A stretch of 45,227 nt of DNA, from positions 1-45,227 of the forward strand of contig CALQIY020000004.1 in assembly GCA_943330755.2 (NCBI GenBank), written 5' to 3'. Within the stretch, counting starts at the first letter, position 1, and every line of letters begins with the position of its first letter. This DNA comes from Opitutus sp. GAS368 (GTDB lineage Bacteria > Verrucomicrobiota > Verrucomicrobiia > Opitutales > UBA953). Under the pieces are notes generated by a model that had not been told where the DNA came from, ran no database searches, and saw only the letters and a list, made by a program, of their open reading frames with translations. Below are positions 32,919 to 45,227 of this stretch, piece by piece. The position numbers and the translations under genes were made by a program.

Positions 32919-33102
32919 CGGCGGCTTCTTTTAGCATCATTTGTCCGGGCGGGGAAGGGGATTCCGCCTTTTGGGTGACGGCAACCCATCCCTCTTGCAT
33001 CCCTTCCCGGAGCGTTTACCTTTTGAAGCGTTCCCCTTAACGGTCCCCCGCGGAACCTACCTACTCGGGGCGCTGTTTAATCCCTCATCCCTTTTCGCGC
33101 CC
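32919..33102. other. Divergent spacer between glycerate kinase and first tandem haem-protein gene
   Basis: The 184-nt spacer must hold promoters for both sides. CTAAAA (minus strand, near 32933) lies about 10 nt before the glycerate kinase ATG and could be a weak -10. On the other side TTGAAG (33022-33027) is a possible -35, without a convincing -10. Nothing else is recognised. Confidence 0.3.
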
Positions 33103-36100
33103 ATGAACGCCCTCCTTCCCCGCCTGCCCCTGCTTGTCGCCCTCGGGTGCGCCCACCTCGCCTGCGCGGCCGAGACCGCCCCGGAGCCGACCAAGGCCGG
33201 CCTCGAGTTCTTCGAGAAGAACGTCCGGCCGATCCTGGCCGAGCATTGCTACAAGTGCCACTCGATCACCGAGAGCGCTTCGAAGGGCGGATTGATCCTG
33301 GACTCCCGCGACGGCATGCTCAAGGGCGGCGATGAAGGGCCCGCGGTGGTGCCGGGCAACCCCGCGAAGTCCCTGTTGCTGCGCGCGATCACCTACACCG
33401 ACAACGAACTCCAGATGCCGCCCAAGAAGGCGGGCGGCAAGATCCCCGACGCCAAGATCAAGGTGCTGGAAGAATGGGTGAAGATGGGGGCACCGGCTCC
33501 CGTCGGTGCCGGCAACAAGTTGACGGGGCTTTCGCAGAAAGCCCGGGAGCACTGGGCCTACAGGCCGGTCGTGAAGCCGGCGGTGCCGGAGGTGAAGAAC
33601 AAGCTCTGGGTGCACAACCCGATCGACGCGTTCGTCCTCGCCAAGCTCGAATCGGCCGGCCTGCAGCCCAACCCCGCGACCAATCCGGAGTCGCTCCTGC
33701 GCCGCATCCATTATGATTTGGTCGGCCTCCCGCCCGCGGCCGAGAAGGTCTACAGCTTCAGCTCCCAATATGCCGTCGCCGTCACGGCGGATGCCGCCAG
33801 CGTCCAGCGTGGTCAACCGGCCAAGGCCGTCGACGCCCTCATCGCCAAGGAAGTGGATGAGCTGCTCGCTTCGCCGCATTACGGCGAACGCTGGGCCCGC
33901 CATTGGCTCGATACCGCCCGCTACTCCGACACGCGCGGTTTGGCGGTCGACCAAGGCAATTCGCTCTTCGAGGACTACCGCTACGCCTACGCCTGGACGT
34001 TCCGTAATTACGTCATCGACGCCATGAATGCGGATAAGCCTTACGACCAGTTCATCGTCGAACAGCTGGCCGCGGATCGCCTGCCTGACCTGAAGAAGGA
34101 AGACCCCCGCCTCGCGGCGCTCGGCTTCATCACCGTGGGCAAGCGCTTCGACAACAAGGACGACACCATCGACGAGCGCATCGACACCACGACCAAGGCT
34201 TTCCTGGGTCTCACGGTCGCCTGCGCGCGTTGCCATGACCATAAGTTCGACCCGATTCCCGCCGCCGACTACTACTCGCTCCACGGCATCTTCGCCTCGA
34301 CGATCGAGCCGCTGCAGCGCCCCGTCATCACTTCGCCCGACGCCGCCGTCCAGCGCGCCGACTTCGAGAAGCGCCTCAAGGCGCTCCAAGAGGAGAGCGC
34401 CGCCGGCTTCTACGAGTATATCCGCGAAATGCGCGCCCGTTACAACCGCGAGATGGCCGGGCGCCTCGTCGCCACGACCTTCAAGCGGGGCTCCGCCGAA
34501 TGGGGCGACGTCAACGAGCGCTACAAGCTGGAGACCCCCTTGCCCGACTTCGAGCCGATGCGGGTGCAGATCGACTCGCCCATCACCGGTCCCTTCGCCC
34601 GTTGCGCCGCGATCCCCGTGGCCGATTTCGCCGAACGCGCCCCGGCGGTCATCGCGGCCGCCCTCGCCGACAAGAAATATCCGGTGAACCCGCTGATCGC
34701 GGCCGCCCTCCGCGACCTCAAGCCCAAGACGATCGACGACGTCGCGTTGGCTTACCAGAAGGTCTACAACGACGCCAAGGACTCGATCCTCGCGCACGTC
34801 GCGCGCTGCGCCAAGCCCGGCCACAGCAGCAAGGAGACGTCGCCCGCCGTCGCCCAACTGGCCAACTACCCCTGGCCCGTGCCGGACGTCGAGAGCATCT
34901 TGGACAACGAGGAGCTCATCGCGATGTTCAACTCCCGCAAGTTCTGCAACGATTGGCAGAATCGCCCCATCTACGGTGGGCAGAACAACCGCGCGCCCGC
35001 GCGCCATTTCCGTTTCACGCAGATCAACGAGCTGCGCCTGACGCACCCGGGCGTGCCGCGGGAAGCCATGGCGGTGGCCGACGCGGACAATCCGCGCGAC
35101 AGCTACGTCTACCTGCGCGGGGACAGGAACAAGCGCGGCCCCGTCGTTCCCCGGCAGTTCCTCGACATCCTCACGACCGCCCCACGCAAGCCTTTCACCG
35201 AGGGCAGCGGTCGCTTGGAGTTGGCGAAGTCCATCGCGAGCAAGGACAACCCCTTGACCGCCCGGGTCGCCATGAATCGCGTTTGGCTCAAGCACTTCGG
35301 CGAAGGCTTCGTCTCCACGCCCGATGACTTCGGCAACATGTCCGAGAAACCCTCGCATCCCGAACTGCTCGATTGGCTCGCCAGCGAATTCACGGAGAAC
35401 GGCTGGTCGCTCAAGCGGATGCACCGTCTCATCCTCACCAGCGCCACCTACCGCTTGGACTCCAATCCCAACGTGAACCCGCTCGTCGTGCGGAAAGGCC
35501 CCGTCGACCCGTTGAAGCTCGACGCCGGCAATCGGCTCCTGTGGCGCGCCAACCTCCACCGCCTCGATTTCGAAGCCATCCGCGATTCGATGCTGAAGCT
35601 GACCGGCAAGTTGAGCCCCGTCGTCGGCGGCCAGCCGGCCAACATCACCGATGAGCCTTACTCCTACCGGCGCAGCATTTATGGTTACGTGGACCGCTTG
35701 CGCCTGAGCGACACGCTTTCGCAGTTCGACTACGCCGATCCGGACATGACGAATTCCAAGCGTGGTTCGACCATCGTGCCCCAGCAGGCCTTGTTCTTCA
35801 TGAACAACCCGCTCTCGGTGGAAGTGGCCCGCGCGGTCGCCGCCCGGCCGGAAGTGGTCAAGGCGATGTCCGAAGATTCCCGCATCAACGCCATGTTCTT
35901 GGCGCTGTTCCAGCGTCGCGCGACCCCCAGTGAGATCCGCTGGGCCAATGACTTCCTTTCCAAGCAGCGCACGCTGACCAACGAAGCGAAGCGGGCGGTC
36001 GCCTCGGGGAAGGCGGCCCCGACTCCGCCTGGGGCGACCCCAGCCAAGGGGACCAAGACGGCCGCCAAAGATGGTAAGACGACCGACACCAAGGGTAAGT

Positions 36101-36333
36101 CCGCCACGGCGGTTGCCCCGAAGGCGAGCCCGGCGGCCAAGACCGGGGTGGCGATGAAGGAGGGTGCGTCGATGATGGAGGGGGGCGGCATGATGATGGA
36201 GGCCAAGACCAGCGGTGGCGCCGAAGGCGTCCTGCAGAATGTCGGTGAAATGGTTTCGCGTAACCCATTGACCCCGATTGAGTTACTGGCTCACGCCCTG
36301 CTTCTTTCCAACGAGTTTGTTTACGTGAATTAG
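33103..36333 (+). CDS. DUF1549/DUF1553 protein with planctomycete cytochrome c domain, tandem copy 1
   Basis: The 1076-residue product has a signal peptide (MNALLPRLPLLVALGCAHLA), a PSCyt1 domain with CYKCH (Cys49, Cys52, His53), DUF1549 with the haem motif CARCH (Cys374, Cys377, His378) in CARCHDHKFDPI, and DUF1553 with NRVWLKHFGEGFVSTPDDFG and RRSIYGYVDRLRL. Before the final helix it has a low-complexity insertion (about 963-1038) rich in Lys, Ala, Pro and Thr, ending in a Met-rich run (GASMMEGGGMMMEAK). It is homologous along its whole length to the next gene. It should be a periplasmic or surface haem protein of unknown role. A strong terminator follows, so copy 2 has its own promoter. 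Confidence 0.88.
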   Translation: MNALLPRLPLLVALGCAHLACAAETAPEPTKAGLEFFEKNVRPILAEHCYKCHSITESASKGGLILDSRDGMLKGGDEGPAVVPGNPAKSLLLRAITYTDNELQMPPKKAGGKIPDAKIKVLEEWVKMGAPAPVGAGNKLTGLSQKAREHWAYRPVVKPAVPEVKNKLWVHNPIDAFVLAKLESAGLQPNPATNPESLLRRIHYDLVGLPPAAEKVYSFSSQYAVAVTADAASVQRGQPAKAVDALIAKEVDELLASPHYGERWARHWLDTARYSDTRGLAVDQGNSLFEDYRYAYAWTFRNYVIDAMNADKPYDQFIVEQLAADRLPDLKKEDPRLAALGFITVGKRFDNKDDTIDERIDTTTKAFLGLTVACARCHDHKFDPIPAADYYSLHGIFASTIEPLQRPVITSPDAAVQRADFEKRLKALQEESAAGFYEYIREMRARYNREMAGRLVATTFKRGSAEWGDVNERYKLETPLPDFEPMRVQIDSPITGPFARCAAIPVADFAERAPAVIAAALADKKYPVNPLIAAALRDLKPKTIDDVALAYQKVYNDAKDSILAHVARCAKPGHSSKETSPAVAQLANYPWPVPDVESILDNEELIAMFNSRKFCNDWQNRPIYGGQNNRAPARHFRFTQINELRLTHPGVPREAMAVADADNPRDSYVYLRGDRNKRGPVVPRQFLDILTTAPRKPFTEGSGRLELAKSIASKDNPLTARVAMNRVWLKHFGEGFVSTPDDFGNMSEKPSHPELLDWLASEFTENGWSLKRMHRLILTSATYRLDSNPNVNPLVVRKGPVDPLKLDAGNRLLWRANLHRLDFEAIRDSMLKLTGKLSPVVGGQPANITDEPYSYRRSIYGYVDRLRLSDTLSQFDYADPDMTNSKRGSTIVPQQALFFMNNPLSVEVARAVAARPEVVKAMSEDSRINAMFLALFQRRATPSEIRWANDFLSKQRTLTNEAKRAVASGKAAPTPPGATPAKGTKTAAKDGKTTDTKGKSATAVAPKASPAAKTGVAMKEGASMMEGGGMMMEAKTSGGAEGVLQNVGEMVSRNPLTPIELLAHALLLSNEFVYVN

Positions 36334-36464: not shown

Positions 36465-36541
36465 CCCCCTCTGATAGCTCCCTAGGCTTTTCCCCCAAGC
36501 TTATGCGGCCGAGCCCACCTCTGTTGTCACTTCCCTTTTCT

Positions 36542-39500
36542 ATGCGTCGGACCCAACCACATTTCCCTTTGGCCCTCCTGATCGGTCTTCTCGTGGCATC
36601 GAGCGCCTCGGCGCAGGAGATGCAGGAGATGGCGATGAAGGCCGCCGCGCCCACCCCCGCCAAGGTCGAGGAGAAGATGGATCCGGCGGGCCTGGAGTTC
36701 TTCGAGAAGAACGTGCGTCCGATCCTGTCCGAGCGTTGCTACAAGTGCCACTCCGCCGCGGAGAGTTCTTCGAAGGGCGGGCTGGTGCTGGATTCGCGCG
36801 CCGCGATGCTCGAAGGCGGCGACCAAGGTCCCGCGGTCGTCCCGAACAACCTGAAGAAGTCCTTGCTGATCCTCTCGGTCCACCAGACCGACCCGGAACT
36901 TTCGATGCCGCCGCGCAACAAGGGTGGCCCCAAGCTCAGCGACGAACAGATCAAGACCTTGGAGAAGTGGGTGATGATGGGCGCCCCGGCCCCGGTGGGT
37001 TCCGGCGCGGTCAAGCTCACCGGCCTCTCGCAGAAGGCGCGTGACCACTGGGCGTTCAAGCCGGTCGTCGCTCCGGAAATCCCCTCCGTCCGCAACCAAG
37101 CCTGGGCGCAGAACGAGATCGATGTCTTCGTCATGCAGAAGCTGGAGCAGAACGGCCTGAAGCCCAATCCCGCCACGGACGGCGATTCCTTGCTGCGCCG
37201 CCTGACCTACGACCTGCACGGCATGCCGCCCACCCCGGCGGAATCCGATGCCTTCGCCCGCGAGTATGACGCCGCGGTCGCCCGCGATGTCTTCGCCATG
37301 CGCAACGGCCAGCCCGCCCGCGCCGCTTCCGTGGTGGTGGAGCGCGTCGTCGACCGTCTGCTGGCTTCGCCGCGTTACGGCGAGCGCTGGGCCCGCCACT
37401 GGCTCGATACCGCCCGCTATTCCGACACGCGCGGCAACCGCCGGGACATCGAAGGCGAACGCTTCCCCAGCGCCTGGACTTACCGCGACTACGTCATCGA
37501 GGCCCTGAACAGCGACAAGCCGTACGACCAGTTCATCATCGAGCAGCTCGCGGCCGACCGCCTGCCGGACCTCGCCAAGGACGACCCGCGCCTGGCGGCG
37601 CTCGGTTTCATCACCGTCGGCAAGCGCTTCGACAACAACGACGACACCATCGACGAGCGCATCGACACGACCACGAAGGCTTTCTTGGGCCTGACGGTCT
37701 CGTGCGCGCGTTGCCATGACCATAAGTTCGATCCGATCCCCGCGGCCGACTATTACTCCCTGCACGGCATCTTCGCTTCGACGACCGAGCCGATGCAGGA
37801 GCCGGTGATCCGCGGCACGCGCATCGGCAACGCGGCCGAGCGCGCCGACTACGACAAGAAGATGCGCGAGCTCGTGGAGTCGAATACCCGTGGATACTAC
37901 CGTTACATCGCGGCCCAGCTGGCCATCCTGCACAAGGATTTCGCGGGGCGGGCCTTGTTCCAGATGGCCGGGCAGCGTTCGGAAAAGGGCTTCGATATCC
38001 AGAAGCAGTACAAGTTCGAGCCCGTGCGGGAAGTCGATGGCTCCATCAACATCGCGACCAACTCGCCGATCACCGGTCCGTTGGCCCGCCTGCGTCGTCT
38101 GACGGACGCCGAGTTCGCCGCCCGCGCCCCGGAAGTCCTCGCCGCCGCCCTCACGGACAAGAAGAGCCCGGTCAATCCGCTGGTCGTCGAAGCCCTCGCC
38201 AACCTCAAGCCGAAGACCCTCGATGACGTCGCCTTGGCCTATCAGGCCATGTTCCAGAAGCATCACGCCCGCATCATCGCCCATATCGGCCTGCGCGGCG
38301 TGCCGGGCGGCGCCGGCGATCGGGATGACAAGGCCCTCGCCCAGTTGGCCGCTTGGCCGTGGCCCCTGCCGAATTACGAGGAGGTCGCCTCCGTGCCGCT
38401 CGTGACCGTGCTGATCTCGACGCGCAGTTTCTGTGAGCCGTGGCAATCCGCGCCGAGCTTCCGCAACGGCAACATCCCCCCCAAGTACTTCCGCTTCGAC
38501 GCCATCAATCAACTCGAGCTGACGCACCCCGGCGGCCCCGGTACGGCGATGGTCGTCGCCGATAGCGAGCGCCCGAAGAACACCAACGTCTTCCTCCGCG
38601 GCGATCGCAACAAGCAGGGCCCCGTGGCCCCTCGCCAGTTCCTGGAGATCCTCGCCGGCCCCGACCGCCAGCCCTTCTTCGATGGCAGCGGCCGCCGCGA
38701 ACTCGCCGTGGCCATCGCCAGCCGCACCAACCCGCTGACCGCCCGCGTGCTCGTGAACCGCGTCTGGATGCACCACTTCGGCGCGGGGATCGTGTCTTCG
38801 CCGGACGACTTCGGCAACATGGCCGAGAAGCCTTCCCACCCCGAACTCCTGGATTGGCTGTCCGCCAACTTCATCGATGCCGGCTGGTCGCTCAAGAAGC
38901 TCCACCGCAAGATCCTCACCTCGCAGACCTATCGGCAGTCCGCCAACCCGCTGCTCAACCCGCTGGTCGCCCAGAAGGGCGAAATCGACCCCATGAAGGT
39001 CGATGCCGGCAACAAGTTCCTGTGGCGCTCCAACCTCCGTCGCCTCGACTTCGAGTGCATCCGCGACGCCATGATCATGCTCACGGGCAAGATGGACCTC
39101 TCCGTCGGTGGGCGCCCCGTCAACATCACCGAAGAGCCGATCAGCTACCGCCGCAGCATCTACGGTTACATCGACCGCGACCGCCTCAGCGACCTGCAGT
39201 CGCAGTTCGACTTCGCCGACCCGTCGATGGCCAACTCGAAGCGCAATTCCACCATCGTGCCCCAGCAGGCGTTGTTCTTCATGAACAACCCGCTGTCGGT
39301 CGAGGTGGCGCGCGCGGTCGCCTCCCGCCCCGAATTCCTCAGCGCCTCCAGCGATGAAGGGCGCATCGCGGTCCTTTACCGCGTGATGTTCCAGCGCGTG
39401 CCCAAGCCGGAGGAAGTCCGTCTCGCCAAGGATTTCGTCAAGAAGGTCGCCGGCTACATCGATGAGCCGCCGCCCTCCGCGAAGCCGAAGACCCCCGTGG

Positions 39501-39724
39501 CCGCCAAGAAGGTCACCAAGGAAGAGGCGCGGGCCATGATGAACAAGCCCCTCGTGCCCTCCACCCAGGCTCCGGGCCAAGCGGCCACCAACGGGGCGAC
39601 CGCCATCGCCGGCGGCGTCATCGTCAATCTCGGCGAGAAAATCTCCCGTAAGACCCCCAGCTCCCCCTGGGAGATGCTGGCCCAGGCCATGATTTGCTCG
39701 AACGAGTTCGTTTACCTCGACTAA
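36542..39724 (+). CDS. DUF1549/DUF1553 protein with planctomycete cytochrome c domain, tandem copy 2
   Basis: The 1060-residue product has a signal peptide (MRRTQPHFPLALLIGLLVAS), a short Met-rich start to the mature chain (QEMQEMAMKA), PSCyt1 with CYKCH (Cys66, Cys69, His70), DUF1549 with CARCH (Cys388, Cys391, His392), and DUF1553 with NRVWMHHFGAGIVSSPDDFG and RRSIYGYIDRDRL. Between the last two helices it carries a linker different in composition from copy 1 (AKPKTPVAAKKVTKEEAR...). Long stretches match copy 1 nearly word for word, which shows a tandem duplication. A second ATG (36503) would add 13 residues before the signal. The DUF1501 gene begins 41 nt downstream with no terminator, so they are probably cotranscribed. 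Confidence 0.88.
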   Translation: MRRTQPHFPLALLIGLLVASSASAQEMQEMAMKAAAPTPAKVEEKMDPAGLEFFEKNVRPILSERCYKCHSAAESSSKGGLVLDSRAAMLEGGDQGPAVVPNNLKKSLLILSVHQTDPELSMPPRNKGGPKLSDEQIKTLEKWVMMGAPAPVGSGAVKLTGLSQKARDHWAFKPVVAPEIPSVRNQAWAQNEIDVFVMQKLEQNGLKPNPATDGDSLLRRLTYDLHGMPPTPAESDAFAREYDAAVARDVFAMRNGQPARAASVVVERVVDRLLASPRYGERWARHWLDTARYSDTRGNRRDIEGERFPSAWTYRDYVIEALNSDKPYDQFIIEQLAADRLPDLAKDDPRLAALGFITVGKRFDNNDDTIDERIDTTTKAFLGLTVSCARCHDHKFDPIPAADYYSLHGIFASTTEPMQEPVIRGTRIGNAAERADYDKKMRELVESNTRGYYRYIAAQLAILHKDFAGRALFQMAGQRSEKGFDIQKQYKFEPVREVDGSINIATNSPITGPLARLRRLTDAEFAARAPEVLAAALTDKKSPVNPLVVEALANLKPKTLDDVALAYQAMFQKHHARIIAHIGLRGVPGGAGDRDDKALAQLAAWPWPLPNYEEVASVPLVTVLISTRSFCEPWQSAPSFRNGNIPPKYFRFDAINQLELTHPGGPGTAMVVADSERPKNTNVFLRGDRNKQGPVAPRQFLEILAGPDRQPFFDGSGRRELAVAIASRTNPLTARVLVNRVWMHHFGAGIVSSPDDFGNMAEKPSHPELLDWLSANFIDAGWSLKKLHRKILTSQTYRQSANPLLNPLVAQKGEIDPMKVDAGNKFLWRSNLRRLDFECIRDAMIMLTGKMDLSVGGRPVNITEEPISYRRSIYGYIDRDRLSDLQSQFDFADPSMANSKRNSTIVPQQALFFMNNPLSVEVARAVASRPEFLSASSDEGRIAVLYRVMFQRVPKPEEVRLAKDFVKKVAGYIDEPPPSAKPKTPVAAKKVTKEEARAMMNKPLVPSTQAPGQAATNGATAIAGGVIVNLGEKISRKTPSSPWEMLAQAMICSNEFVYLD

Positions 39725-39765
39725 CCCCCGCCACCTTTCATACTAAACATATAACCAAGCCCCCT

Positions 39766-41154
39766 ATGGAAATCCAAAACTGCCATAACAGCCTCCCGAC
39801 GCCCACCTCCCGCCGCGACTTCCTGCGCCAGACCGGCATGAGCATGGGCACCATCGCCTTCGGCACCATGGTCGCCGACTACATGGTGAACCCGGCGAGC
39901 GCCGAGATCACCGCCACCTTGAAGCCGCGCCAGGCCCCGTTGCCGGCCAAGGCCAAGCACGTCATCCACATCTTCGCCGGTGGCGCGCCTTCGCACCTCG
40001 ACACCTTCGACTACAAGCCGGGCATGAAGGCCTACGCGGAGAAGTCGCAGGGTGGCGGCGGTGGCGTCCTCTTCCCCACGCCGTTCGAATTCAAGAAGTG
40101 CGGCAAGTCCGGCCTCGAGATCTCCGAGATCTTCCCGAAGCTCCAGGAGCAGGCGGATGAGATGTGCGTCATCCGCTCGTTGCACTCCGACCTCCCGGCC
40201 CACGGTCCGGCCGCCAAGCTGATGCACACCGGCTCGGCGATCCTCACCAAGCCCTGCTTGGGTTCCTGGGTCCTCTACGGCCTCGGCACCGAGAGCCAGG
40301 ATCTCCCCGGTTTCGTCAGCCTCGGCGGTGGCGCCGAAGGTCGCCAGTCCGCCTTCCTGCCGAGCATCTTCCAAGGCGCGAAGACCTCCTTCCGTCCGGG
40401 CGCTCCGTCCAACAAGGTGATCGCCAACCTCCAGAGCGAGTTCACGACCGAAGAGGCCCAGCGCAAGCAGCTCGACCTCGTGCACCAGCTGAACGATCGC
40501 CACATGCAGACCGTCCAGAAGGACGAGCAGCTGGAGGCGCGCATCGAATCCTTCGAGCTCGCCTTCCGCATGCAGACCGCGGCGACCGACGCCTTCGACA
40601 TCTCCAAGGAGTCGCAGAAGACCCGCGACATGTACGGCAAGAGCGACCTCGGCGCCAAGCTCCTCTGCGCCCGCCGCCTCGTCGAGCGTGGCGTCCGCTT
40701 CGTGCAGGTCGATGCCGGCGGTTGGGATCACCACACCAACATCTTCACCTCGGCCGGCCGCACCGGTGCCGCCATCGACACCCCCGCCGCCGCGCTCATC
40801 GCCGACCTCAAGCAGCGCGGTCTGCTCGACGAGACCCTCATCATCTGGGGCGGAGAATTCGGCCGCACCCCGACCACCGCGGGTCGCGTGAACACCAATT
40901 CCGGCCGCGACCACCATGCCAAGGCGTTCTGCTGCTGGATGGCGGGTGGTGGCGTCAAGGGCGGCATGCACTACGGTGAGACCGACGAAATCGGCAGCCA
41001 AGTGGCCGCCGACGGCGTCGACATCCATGACTTGCACGCGACCATCCTGCGTCTCCTTGGTTTCGACCACACGAAGCTCACCTACCGCTACAACGGCCGT
41101 GACTTCCGCCTGACCGACAACTTCGGCAAGGTCGTCAGCAAGGTCATCGCCTAA
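39766..41154 (+). CDS. DUF1501 protein, Tat-exported, second copy
   Basis: The 462-residue product has a twin-arginine signal (SRRDFLRQTGMSMGTIAFG) and a complete DUF1501 domain. Putative metal-site motifs are IFAGGAPSHLDTFDYKPGM (residues about 67-85), the QVDAGGWDHHTNIF segment (about 321-334), and IIWGGEFGRTP...GRDHHAKAFCCW (about 363-392), all in the expected order for the alkaline-phosphatase-like superfamily. Compared with the protein at 30345, it retains the Asp/His-rich sites and is the better candidate for an active enzyme. Substrate unknown. A strong terminator follows, ending the haem-protein/DUF1501 cluster. Confidence 0.9.
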   Translation: MEIQNCHNSLPTPTSRRDFLRQTGMSMGTIAFGTMVADYMVNPASAEITATLKPRQAPLPAKAKHVIHIFAGGAPSHLDTFDYKPGMKAYAEKSQGGGGGVLFPTPFEFKKCGKSGLEISEIFPKLQEQADEMCVIRSLHSDLPAHGPAAKLMHTGSAILTKPCLGSWVLYGLGTESQDLPGFVSLGGGAEGRQSAFLPSIFQGAKTSFRPGAPSNKVIANLQSEFTTEEAQRKQLDLVHQLNDRHMQTVQKDEQLEARIESFELAFRMQTAATDAFDISKESQKTRDMYGKSDLGAKLLCARRLVERGVRFVQVDAGGWDHHTNIFTSAGRTGAAIDTPAAALIADLKQRGLLDETLIIWGGEFGRTPTTAGRVNTNSGRDHHAKAFCCWMAGGGVKGGMHYGETDEIGSQVAADGVDIHDLHATILRLLGFDHTKLTYRYNGRDFRLTDNFGKVVSKVIA

Positions 41155-41211: not shown

Positions 41212-41264
41212 GCGCCTAGGCTTGCAGGTTTTTCTTCTGATTGTATCTTAGAAGGATAAAGCCG

Positions 41265-41957
41265 ATGCCCCTGCGATTCTTCATGGTCTTGGTGGCTTCT
41301 TGTGCGGCGGTGGTCTTCTTGACCTGGCCGACCGAGCGGGCGCCCAGCCGGGCCCGGCCGGCGGCTCCCGTGGCTCCGCCGGCGTTGGTGCGCGCCGCGG
41401 AAGCGGACGAGGTCCCTGCGGCGTCCGCTGCGGGTTCGGTGGTCGGTGGGCCCGCGGCGGATAGTCTGGTGCGGTCACGCCCGCGCCCGGCCGGCGCGCC
41501 CGGCCAGGGTGGAGTCATTGGTGGGCCTGCCGGCGACCTGTCGCCCACCCCGGCTTCCGTTGCCCAGGTGAAGGCGGATGCCGCGGGCCGTCTCCCCACC
41601 GGCGGCCAGGTCCGGCTGGATGCATTGGGCAACCGCGAAGTGCGTTTGGACAACGGCGTCACGGCGACGACCTCCACGGATGCCTTGGGTGGGAGCACGA
41701 CCCGCTTCAGCAATGGCGTGACGGCTTCGACGCGGACCGACGCGTTGGGCGGGACGACCACGCGTTATTCGAACGGGGTGACGGCGAACTCCCGAAAAGA
41801 CGCCCTCGGCAATACCGACACGGTCTACAGCGATGGTACCCGCTCGACGACCCGGGTGGATCCGTTCGGCAATCAGGTGACGACCTACAGCGATGGTCGG
41901 ACCGAAACGATCCGCCCCGACCCCTTTGCCCCGCGGCCGCCCGCCGGCAAAAAATGA
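41265..41957 (+). CDS. Exported protein with five 20-residue tandem repeats (YD/Rhs-like)
   Basis: The 230-residue product begins MPLRFFMVLVASCAAVVFLT, a signal peptide or anchor, followed by a Pro/Ala/Arg-rich spacer (about 22-110) and five consecutive 20-residue repeats (residues 119-218) of the form DALGxxxTRYSNGVTAxTRx. A truncated sixth (DPFAPRPP) ends the chain. Each repeat has Asp-x-x-Gly and an aromatic-Ser-Asn/Asp-Gly turn, recalling the strand-turn units of YD/Rhs repeats, but here the array is short and stands alone. The start is ATG 41265: AGAAGGA (41250-41256) lies 8 nt before it and is one of the few good Shine-Dalgarno sequences in this window. Function unknown; a surface or matrix role is possible. 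Confidence 0.75.
   Translation: MPLRFFMVLVASCAAVVFLTWPTERAPSRARPAAPVAPPALVRAAEADEVPAASAAGSVVGGPAADSLVRSRPRPAGAPGQGGVIGGPAGDLSPTPASVAQVKADAAGRLPTGGQVRLDALGNREVRLDNGVTATTSTDALGGSTTRFSNGVTASTRTDALGGTTTRYSNGVTANSRKDALGNTDTVYSDGTRSTTRVDPFGNQVTTYSDGRTETIRPDPFAPRPPAGKK
41619..41918 (+). repeat. Five tandem 60-bp coding repeats
   Basis: Units start at 41619, 41679, 41739, 41799 and 41859. Units 2 and 3 are the most alike; units 4 and 5 have diverged (DPFGN in place of DALGG; SDG in place of SNG). The period is exact at 60 bp, so copies have been gained or lost in frame. Confidence 0.88.
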
Positions 41958-42034: not shown

Positions 42035-43126
42035 ATGACGCATACCCTCACCCGCTGGGCCGCTACCGCCGCCCTCATCCTCGCGGCTCCGCTCCTGCTG
42101 GCGGCCGATACGTTTACCTCAGGTTCTGGTTGGCTCGACTTCCCCGGCGGCAAGGGGCCCGGTGCCGGCAAGACCGTCGTCCTGCTGGCCGGCGACGAGG
42201 AGTACCGCTCGGAAGAGTCGATGCCCATGCTCGCGCGCATCTTGGCCGAGCGCCACGGTTTCCATGCCATCGTCCTGTTTTCGCACGATGACGGGGTGAT
42301 CAATCCGAACAACGGGGCGTCGCTCGGCAAGCCCGAAGCCCTCGATGGCGCCGATGCGCTCGTGCTTGGTCTGCGTTTCCGGAAGTGGAACGAGGCGACC
42401 CTCGCGAAGTTCGACGCCGCCGTGAAGCGTGGCGTGCCGATCGTCGGTACGCGCACCAGCACGCACGCCTTCGCGGGCATCCCGAAGGAGAGCGCTTTCG
42501 TGAGCTATAATTGGAACGCCAAGGGCGGCTTCGGGAAGAACGTCCTCGGCGAAACCTGGATCAGCCACTGGGGCAACCACAAGGGTGAAGCCACGCGCAC
42601 CGCCGTCGAGTCGGGTGCGGAAAAGCATCCCGTCCTCAATGGCGTCGACATCGCCTACGGTGACACCGACGTCTATGAAGCCTACCCGCCGGCGGACGCC
42701 AAGGTCCTGCTCCGCGGCGTCGTCCTGAAGGATATGGACCCGAAGAGCCCGCCCAGCGAACGCCGCAAGAAGCGCGCGAGCGACAAGCAGGAACAGGGCG
42801 TCAACGACCCCGCGATGGCCGTGGCTTGGACGCGTGAACTCAAGGGCGACACCGGTAAGGTCAACCGTATCCTGACCACGACGATGGCTTCGGCCAGCGA
42901 CCTGAAGGATGAGTCCCTCCGCCGCCTCCTGGTGAACGGCGTCTTCTGGGGTCTCCAACTCGAGGTTCCGGCCAAGGCCGACGTCACCCCGCTCGTGGAA
43001 TGGAAGCCGAGCAAGTACTCCTTCAACCTTTTCCACAAGGGCTTGAAGGCGGCCGATTTCGCCGGCGTCTTGCCCGATCCGGTGGCCGCGCCGGCCCCCG
43101 CGCCGAAGAAGCCCGCCGCCAAGTAA
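42035..43126 (+). CDS. ThuA-like (trehalose utilisation/class I glutamine amidotransferase-like) secreted protein
   Basis: The 363-residue product has a signal peptide (MTHTLTRWAATAALILAAPLLLAA) and a ThuA-like domain with a flavodoxin/glutamine-amidotransferase-type core: GKTVVLLAGDEEYRSEESMP (about residues 45-64), GADALVLGLRFRKWNEATL, GVPIVGTRTSTHAF, HPVLNGVDIAYGDTDVYEAYP, and AVAWTRELKGDTGKVNRILTT. ThuA proteins were linked to sugar utilisation and are expanded in planctomycetes and verrucomicrobia; the reaction is not settled. The C-terminus ends in a Pro/Ala/Lys tail. The gene follows the repeat protein by 77 nt and ends at a strong hairpin terminator. Confidence 0.85.
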   Translation: MTHTLTRWAATAALILAAPLLLAADTFTSGSGWLDFPGGKGPGAGKTVVLLAGDEEYRSEESMPMLARILAERHGFHAIVLFSHDDGVINPNNGASLGKPEALDGADALVLGLRFRKWNEATLAKFDAAVKRGVPIVGTRTSTHAFAGIPKESAFVSYNWNAKGGFGKNVLGETWISHWGNHKGEATRTAVESGAEKHPVLNGVDIAYGDTDVYEAYPPADAKVLLRGVVLKDMDPKSPPSERRKKRASDKQEQGVNDPAMAVAWTRELKGDTGKVNRILTTTMASASDLKDESLRRLLVNGVFWGLQLEVPAKADVTPLVEWKPSKYSFNLFHKGLKAADFAGVLPDPVAAPAPAPKKPAAK

Positions 43127-43147: not shown

Positions 43148-43179
43148 GAGGCGTCCCGCGCGGGACGCCTCTTCTTTTT
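43148..43179 (+). terminator. Rho-independent terminator of the ThuA-like gene
   Basis: A perfect 24-bp palindrome (arms GAGGCGTCCCGC and GCGGGACGCCTC, 43148-43171) is followed by TTCTTTTT. The T-tract overlaps the TAA stop of the convergent gene, so there is no spare sequence between the two units. Confidence 0.88.
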
Positions 43180-45001
43180 AGCTGCGCAGCCCGCGGCCCG
43201 CGAGCAGGCGCACGAAGGCTTCGTTGCTGAGGATGAACGCTCCTTGCCGCGTGCACGCATCGCGGACTTCCGCGTCATCGGAGACGATGAACCAAGGGCC
43301 TTCCGAGGACTTGTCCTTGCCGACGAGGTCCATGAGGTCGTGGTCCGCCTTGGCGCCCGCCCGGCTGTAGGTCGCCTTGAGCCGCGGATGGTCGAGCCGC
43401 AGGTTCGAGGCCTGCCCGTCGAAGCTCGCCCAGATGAGCAGGCCGGTCCCTTCGTGGGCAAGTTTTTCCAAGAGGTTTAAGACCTTCTGGCGGGCGGGCG
43501 CATCGAGGAGCAAGCGCAGGTCGCCCTGGGCGTTGCGCTTCGCGGCGAGCTTCAAGCCGAGGTAGGCTTGTTGCAGGCAGGCGAAGTTATTGGCGTCGAT
43601 GCCGAGGCGGGCGGGTTCGCCCAGCGCCACGGCGCGTTCGAGCAGCGCGACGGGGCCCGAGGGCTTCTGGTCGTGGAAGCGTTGGTCCGCCATGAACGAC
43701 CGGCGGCGATGGATGTCGCCGCGGTAAAGGTCGGCGTGCCGAGAATCGACGAGGCCCGACTGTTCGGCGGCGGCGAGGGCGGCTTCGATGGCCTTCAGTT
43801 CGGCGGTCTCCGCCACGTTGATCTTCGCGGCGATCCGTTCCAGGAAGGGGTCGGAAGGGAGGTCGCGGCGTTCGAGTTCGTAGCGGACTTTTTCGATATG
43901 TTCGGTGACGCGCTTTTCCAAAGTCACGATCGCAGGCAGCACGTTGCCCGCCGTTCGTTGGTAGCGGCGGAGCAACTTGAGCATATCCTCCATCTGCGGG
44001 ATGGCCTGACGGAGCTCATGTTCTTTGGCCAAGAAGGGGTCGGCGTCGCGTTGCGCCTTCCGGATCGCCTCCACCGTCTCGGCGGTCAGGTGGCGAAGTT
44101 GCGCGACTTCGTCCGACGCTTCGCGGAGCTTGCGCGCATCCGTGAACCAGGGCCGCAGCTCTTCCGAGAGGAGGTGTTCCGCGATCTCGCGCGCTTTCTT
44201 CGCCACGTGCTCCCGGGCTTGCGCGAGTTCGTCCTTGAGCCGCGCGACCTCCGCGTCCGCTTTGGTCGCCCGGGTCAGCAAGGCTTGGAGGGCGGCCTCG
44301 TGGGTCGTCTGCTGTAAGGCGTGGGCTTCGAGCTGGGCTTTCGCAGCGGCTTCCAGTTCCGCGATGCGCGTATCGCGCTCGCCCAGCACATGGGCGTTGT
44401 GGCGGCGTTCGGCCCGCAACTCGTTTTCGCGGGCCGTCGCCATCCGGTCGATTTCCTCCTTCAGTTTGCGGACGGAGGGATCGGTGGTGGAGGGGGTTTC
44501 CGCTTCGGCGGGTGCGTCGACGGTCGGGGCGCCGACCTTCTGGAGCCAGAGGCGTAAGGCTTTGGCGTCCGGCTGGTTGGCGCTGGGTTTGCCCGCGCCG
44601 GCGTGCTTGGTGAAGTGTTCCGACGCGATGGCTGCCTCCTTGTCCTCCGCGCGGGCGGAACGCACCAAGCAGAGGAGAGCCGTGCGTGGCCCGCCGAGGA
44701 TGGTCGCCAGCTCGTCGAGATGCGTCAGCAAGGTCGCCTTCTCCAGCTTCAGCAGGGCGGGCATCCAGGGCAGTTCGTCGGCGATGGCATCGAAATCCGC
44801 CGCGATCAAGTGATGCCGGGCTTGGAAGAGCCGGCGCGCGTTCTTCAGGAAAGGCGTGCGATGGCTCCAGCCTCCGGGGGTTTTCTTGGCTAGCGCAAGC
44901 AGCGGACCGGGCGGGACGAAGGCGAGGTCGTGGACGAGCTGTTCGGAGAGCGTCTTGCGGCAAGGGGTGACGAGGTCGTTCTTGTACGCGTATTGTCCCA
45001 T
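43178..45001 (-). CDS. Coiled-coil protein with C-terminal NYN/PIN-like putative nuclease domain
   Basis: The 607-residue cytoplasmic protein has an N-terminal helical region of unknown family (about 1-150), a long charged coiled coil (about 170-290, with dense Glu/Ala/Arg/Lys heptads such as ERDTRIAELEAAAKAQLEAH), a second helical part (about 290-450), and a C-terminal domain (467-607) with PIN/NYN features. These are LGIDANNF (Asp469), WASFDGQ (Asp528), AKADHDLMDLV (Asp553, Asp555) and FIVSDDAEVRDACTRQGAFI (Asp575, Asp576), in the order of the acidic metal-binding residues of YacP/NYN nucleases. No signal peptide. It probably cleaves RNA, but target and role are unknown. It is monocistronic with its own putative promoter. 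Confidence 0.78.
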   Translation of the reverse strand: MGQYAYKNDLVTPCRKTLSEQLVHDLAFVPPGPLLALAKKTPGGWSHRTPFLKNARRLFQARHHLIAADFDAIADELPWMPALLKLEKATLLTHLDELATILGGPRTALLCLVRSARAEDKEAAIASEHFTKHAGAGKPSANQPDAKALRLWLQKVGAPTVDAPAEAETPSTTDPSVRKLKEEIDRMATARENELRAERRHNAHVLGERDTRIAELEAAAKAQLEAHALQQTTHEAALQALLTRATKADAEVARLKDELAQAREHVAKKAREIAEHLLSEELRPWFTDARKLREASDEVAQLRHLTAETVEAIRKAQRDADPFLAKEHELRQAIPQMEDMLKLLRRYQRTAGNVLPAIVTLEKRVTEHIEKVRYELERRDLPSDPFLERIAAKINVAETAELKAIEAALAAAEQSGLVDSRHADLYRGDIHRRRSFMADQRFHDQKPSGPVALLERAVALGEPARLGIDANNFACLQQAYLGLKLAAKRNAQGDLRLLLDAPARQKVLNLLEKLAHEGTGLLIWASFDGQASNLRLDHPRLKATYSRAGAKADHDLMDLVGKDKSSEGPWFIVSDDAEVRDACTRQGAFILSNEAFVRLLAGRGLRS

Positions 45002-45076: not shown

Positions 45077-45227
45077 TCAAAGGACCGTATTGTCGATGAG
45101 CCGCGTGTTCCCGAGGTGGCAGGCTATCGCCAAGGCGCAACGCCCCGGGGTCACCTGCGTCACCGGGGCCATGGTCTCTTGATCCACGAGCGCGACATAC
45201 TGGGGCCGGAGGGCGGGCTCCTTCGTC
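45077..45227 (-). CDS. panC: Pantothenate synthetase, C-terminal end only
   Basis: A minus-strand frame open to the window edge encodes 49 residues (TKEPALRPQYVALVDQETMA..., ending LGNTRLIDNTVL) before TGA 45079-45077. The YVALVDQETM strand and the terminal GNTRLIDN motif are characteristic of the C-terminus of PanC, which joins pantoate and beta-alanine in pantothenate synthesis. The 5' part and the catalytic HIGH motif lie outside the window. The next gene on the same strand starts 75 nt downstream and has its own putative promoter. Confidence 0.85.
   Translation of the reverse strand, partial: TKEPALRPQYVALVDQETMAPVTQVTPGRCALAIACHLGNTRLIDNTVL

Follow-up and report, generated by a model that had tools for sequence, protein, structure and literature searches.

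A long-form NYN protein of Opitutus joins a predicted Rae1/YacP-type nuclease domain to a conserved helical arm

The stretch of Opitutus sp. GAS368 DNA analyzed here (45,227 nucleotides of contig CALQIY020000004.1, hereafter the window) encodes a 607-residue protein in which a C-terminal NYN domain of the Rae1/YacP type is preceded by a long helical arm. Judging from its predicted structure, the protein is probably a metal-dependent endoribonuclease that acts on single-stranded RNA in mRNA turnover, with the arm docking most plausibly onto the ribosome or a component of RNA decay. Proteins built in the same way occur in other classes of the phylum, so that sequence comparison marks these long forms as a putative uncharacterized family of bacterial RNases rather than a one-off. 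If the proposed function is true, the family would offer a concrete enzyme to test in studies of how Verrucomicrobiota and related classes control the quality of their mRNA or degrade it.

The gene is intact, with an ATG start and a stop codon at 43178-43180 (Table 1). The original prediction had called this reading frame correctly, omitting only that it lies on the minus strand. The gene and the window have the same GC content. Orthologs, mostly full length and 54-98% identical, were found in 33 of the 37 genomes of the genus, which shows that the gene is genuine rather than a frame that arose by chance in GC-rich DNA. Searches matched no ortholog in one near-complete congener (G156) or in four less complete ones, although absence in such searches is weak evidence. 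Measured against a 90% identical relative, dN/dS was approximately 0.04 over the whole gene: 0.02 in both the middle and the NYN domains, 0.06 in the N-terminal domain, and 0.15 in the long helix. The gene is under strong purifying selection. Named public records of orthologs are mostly freshwater MAGs of Opitutae or Verrucomicrobiota, "freshwater" being a reading of the isolate names.

Most members of the genus carry a single copy, and in the source genome the window protein is the sole YacP-type protein detected, bar a probable contaminant on another contig. This second copy (L047; genome G000, contig C138, 1285-3105) is 60% identical to the window protein. Since its entire 5.2-kb contig matches genomes of the sister clade at 84-90%, a contaminating contig in the MAG is a more likely explanation than a paralog.

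Table 1. Position of the long-form NYN gene, its predicted domains and acidic residues, and the upstream neighbor in the window.
Feature	Position in window	Strand	Basis
Long-form NYN protein, whole CDS including stop, 607 aa	43178..45001	-	ORF and orthologs
N-terminal all-helical domain, residues 1-158	44528..45001	-	AF2 pLDDT 92.9; homology to long-form N-terminus; no PDB match
Long helix, probable coiled coil, residues 177-275	44177..44473	-	Predicted helix (continues to 320); 3.58-residue periodicity
Middle helical domain, residues 276-445	43667..44176	-	hhalign 60.4 vs shuffled mean 11.4; dN/dS ~0.02
YacP-type NYN nuclease domain, residues 455-607	43181..43639	-	PF05991; Rae1/YacP Z 14.4
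Asp469, DxxN motif, aligns with Rae1 Asp7	43595..43597	-	Alignments
Asp528, FDG motif	43418..43420	-	Alignments
Asp553, AD motif, aligns with Rae1 Asp81	43343..43345	-	Alignments
Asp576, second Asp of SDD, aligns with family-invariant Asp and Rae1 Asp104	43274..43276	-	Alignments
panC 3' end (pantoate-beta-alanine ligase), neighbor only	45077..45227	-	Ends 75 bp upstream, same strand

The sole credible Pfam match in the window protein was NYN_YacP (PF05991), which covers residues 503-599 at 23.2 bits against a curated cut-off of 24.6 (E 7.7e-5). The match is found in all 29 aligned members of the genus at E<=0.1 (best E 3.7e-7), and a copy from the sister clade scores 37.3 bits, over the cut-off. 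In the AF2 model, the domain has a PIN-like alpha/beta fold, for which Rae1 is the nearest structure: comparison with 5mq8 by VIA-align gave a Z score of 14.4 and an rmsd of 2.7 over 128 residues spanning 464-605, and in Foldseek Rae1 alone reached a probability of 1.0. Identity to Rae1 in the structural alignment is approximately 16%. Sequence searches of the PDB depended on the query used. The whole protein yielded only histone H2A, which was rejected for its weak E-values, and an alignment of the NYN domain from the genus alone gave no real match, while the profile of the long-form family found Rae1 at 3e-8. The profile match, the predicted fold, and a conserved acidic set support the C-terminal NYN/PIN nuclease that had been proposed from the sequence alone.

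The original prediction had named six acidic residues as the NYN/PIN set, all of which are present. Their order follows the motifs DxxN (D469/N472), FDG (D528), AD (D553), and xD (D576). D469, D528, D553, D555, D575, and D576 are invariant across the 29 members, as are N472 and R504; D555 and D575, however, are invariant within the genus only and fall in variable columns of the wider family, so that four of the six residues stand as the family set. These four align with invariant aspartates of the long-form profile, and so do D7, D81, and D104 of Rae1. Taken together, the alignment and the match in fold predict that the aspartates cluster. In a characterized bacterial NYN domain, the acidic residues are required for RNase activity (PMC11346440).

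Upstream of the alpha/beta domain, which begins at residue 464, the AF2 model consists of a helical N-terminal domain, a single helix from 177 to 320, and further helices up to 445. When residues 1-158 were modeled alone, the model was a confident one (pLDDT 92.9, pTM 0.88), and no solved relative was found: neither the PDB nor a set of viral models gave a match above chance, which does not prove a new fold. None of the parts outside the NYN domain matched a Pfam or NCBIfam family. Matches to SMC/Rad50 (NCBIfam) and to JetC/LmuB (PADLOC) covered the helical part only and were rejected as compositional coiled-coil noise. As for the long coiled coil that had been proposed, a single long helix is indeed predicted, but its amphipathic repeat of approximately 3.58 residues differs from a clean 3.5 heptad, which makes a coiled coil likely rather than proven.

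Actinobacterial NYN proteins of approximately 440 residues, with a coiled coil and a C-terminal YacP-type domain, may be a further parallel to this layout. When 387 genomes of the phylum were surveyed with PF05991, short YacP proteins were found along with frames of approximately 580-720 residues with a C-terminal NYN domain. The latter run from an N-terminal helical domain through a long helix and a middle helical domain to the NYN domain. Two profiles were built, one from the family of the window's genus (A1) and one from the long-form proteins of other classes (A2; L120-L135 and L153-L169). By hand count, searches with A2 gave long-form matches extending into the arm in approximately 42 genomes, all outside the window's class, the proteins being 550-720 residues long. 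The arrangement, which had gone unrecognized in the original prediction, is therefore characteristic of a family rather than a fusion seen once.

The long-form profile recovers every protein of the window clade in hmmsearch at 1e-25 to 1e-32 (approximately 1e-27 for the window's own genome), with one of the alignments spanning residues 70-602. Because coiled-coil composition inflates whole-profile scores, homology was assessed by segment, using hhalign with column-shuffled controls. The NYN segment scored 72.6 (shuffled 12.7 +/- 2.6), the middle segment 60.4 (shuffled 11.4 +/- 2.0, maximum 18.2), and the N-terminal segment, the weakest of the three, 32.6 (shuffled 11.6 +/- 2.2, maximum 18.3); in each case, none of 150 controls reached the real score. 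By this measure, each of the three segments is independently homologous to the long-form family. The coiled-coil segment was discarded as evidence of homology, since reversing the family hardly lowered its score (21.9 versus 24.3). Comparison of A1 with A2 gave a probability of 99.5% (E 2.6e-22) over 312 columns, covering residues 277-601 and thus reaching well beyond the NYN domain.

In a tree of 72 NYN domains, the window clade falls within a long-form group (support 98/97) and apart from the short YacP proteins, all of which a single branch separates from the rest (93/85). In other families of the order, YacP-like proteins are short (approximately 150-190 residues); they have the NYN_YacP domain in common with the window protein, but lack the arm, and none was found in the window's genome. 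The long forms of other classes, in contrast, share its four-part order, similar length, and homologous N-terminal, middle, and NYN domains, although the window clade is strongly diverged from them. Its NYN branch is very long (2.75 changes per site), and a program warning flags that long branches join there; given this length, substrate or activity may have shifted in the window clade.

Among the genomes sampled from its own class, the window clade is confined to one genus. Among the 387 genomes, profile A1 picked up members in the genus alone, and A2, run as the same survey, missed the window's own genome despite its strong hmmsearch score; with few candidates scored per genome, absence in these surveys is weak evidence. 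For the long forms of other classes, the libraries searched gave no name: Pfam and NCBIfam found NYN_YacP in 14 of 15, and their other hits were sporadic ones to coiled coils. Only one of the approximately 42 long-form genomes (G086) also shows a separate, clear short form, a complementarity that is confounded by kinship. Two long-form NYN genes lie in tandem in genome G071 (contig C18, 9560-12812), and genome G133 has a second long-form copy on another contig.

The nearest known counterpart is Rae1/YacP of Bacillus subtilis (PDB 5MQ8/5MQ9), with which the window protein shares the C-terminal NYN fold and the order and identity of the acidic residues. A ribosome-associated enzyme, Rae1 belongs to the small number of bacterial endonucleases for which cleavage of mRNA within the ribosomal A site is known. 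It is a short protein of approximately 170 residues that consists of the NYN domain only, whereas the window protein adds a conserved helical arm of 450 residues. In the mechanism we propose, the NYN domain at the C-terminal end of the arm would cleave mRNA delivered to it, while the N-terminal and middle helical domains would dock a partner, either the translating ribosome or another component of RNA decay, and the long helix would provide oligomerization or reach. Catalysis, RNA as the substrate, and oligomerization are what we infer; association with ribosomes we infer only weakly, by analogy with Rae1. Since Rae1 acts in the A site, where it cleaves mRNA (PMC12320835; PMC8266666), docking to the ribosome serves as a first, tentative hypothesis for the arm. 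The middle domain is as constrained as the nuclease, which suggests that it offers a fixed partner surface. The "scaffolded RNase" of the original prediction holds up as a reading, in that the arm and middle domain are conserved and have homologs in other classes. The long forms could even be an undescribed class of bacterial enzymes that cleave mRNA and stand in for the short Rae1/YacP, their Rae1-like nuclease being carried to ribosomes by a new helical fold together with the conserved middle domain; this is a more doubtful proposition.

Alternatively, the protein may be an RNase of another decay or processing pathway, such as rRNA or tRNA maturation or a membrane- or degradosome-type assembly, with the arm as a scaffold and the ribosome not its docking site. 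NYN/PIN proteins do serve in rRNA maturation, decay, and other roles (PMC11346440), protein-only RNase P is the next-best structural match, and no translation gene is adjacent; no conserved neighbor links the gene to the ribosome or RNA decay at the loci of the genus or of the other long forms. We nevertheless consider this unlikely, as Rae1 is the closest fold by a wide margin (Z 14.4, versus 8.7 and 8.0 for the RNase P structures in VIA-align) and no known RNA-binding or membrane domain was recognized. A fast-evolving NYN branch and a low Pfam score would also be expected of a pseudo-nuclease, a structural protein that kept the NYN fold and lost the ability to cut. Retention of the family-conserved acidic residues along with N472 and R504 in all 29 sequences, and a dN/dS of 0.02 in the NYN domain, make this very improbable.

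The genomic context bears on a further alternative. In the window clade, panC lies upstream on the same strand; it was identified by Pfam (PF02569, E 1.5e-105) on the complete ortholog next to the homologous gene in L035. The sister clade instead has a divergent EamA-type transporter. Downstream, a convergent ThuA-like/DUF1501/PSCyt set is kept in 31-33 of 35 loci, and the gene sits among housekeeping genes. At the other long-form loci, no neighbor was common except AsnA (aspartate-ammonia ligase). Three related loci (L177, L178, and L180) have it on the same strand as the long-form gene, at 41-127 bp upstream (Pfam-confirmed in L178 and L180). No conserved small partner gene of the toxin-antitoxin kind was found across the genus or other families, and the queries tried gave no copies in plasmids, phages, or viral contigs. 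PIN/NYN domains do occur in toxins and CRISPR systems (PMC11346440), but the suggestion of a toxin or anti-phage sensor-effector, whose arm would sense a trigger and release a toxic RNase, is the least probable of all and finds no footing in a gene that is single copy in most of the genus, vertically stable in its neighborhood, and without an antitoxin-like partner, defense neighbors, a recognized ligand-binding domain, copies in mobile elements with the queries tried, or PADLOC matches other than coiled-coil noise.

Several other frames were observed in the window. The gene at 42035-43123 is read as ThuA-like, with no match in Pfam, and 41241-41957 encodes a 238-residue protein with repeated "YSNGVT..DALGG"-like units, also without a Pfam match. 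Two adjacent, similar proteins of the PSCyt1/DUF1549/DUF1553 type (32941-36333 and 36503-39724) are followed by a DUF1501 protein (39694-41154); of these, the second of the pair and the DUF1501 protein were run through Pfam. A frame of 1017 codons on the minus strand (36527-39580), antisense to the DUF1549/DUF1553 gene, probably reflects nothing more than the GC-rich coding DNA opposite, as a shadow ORF.
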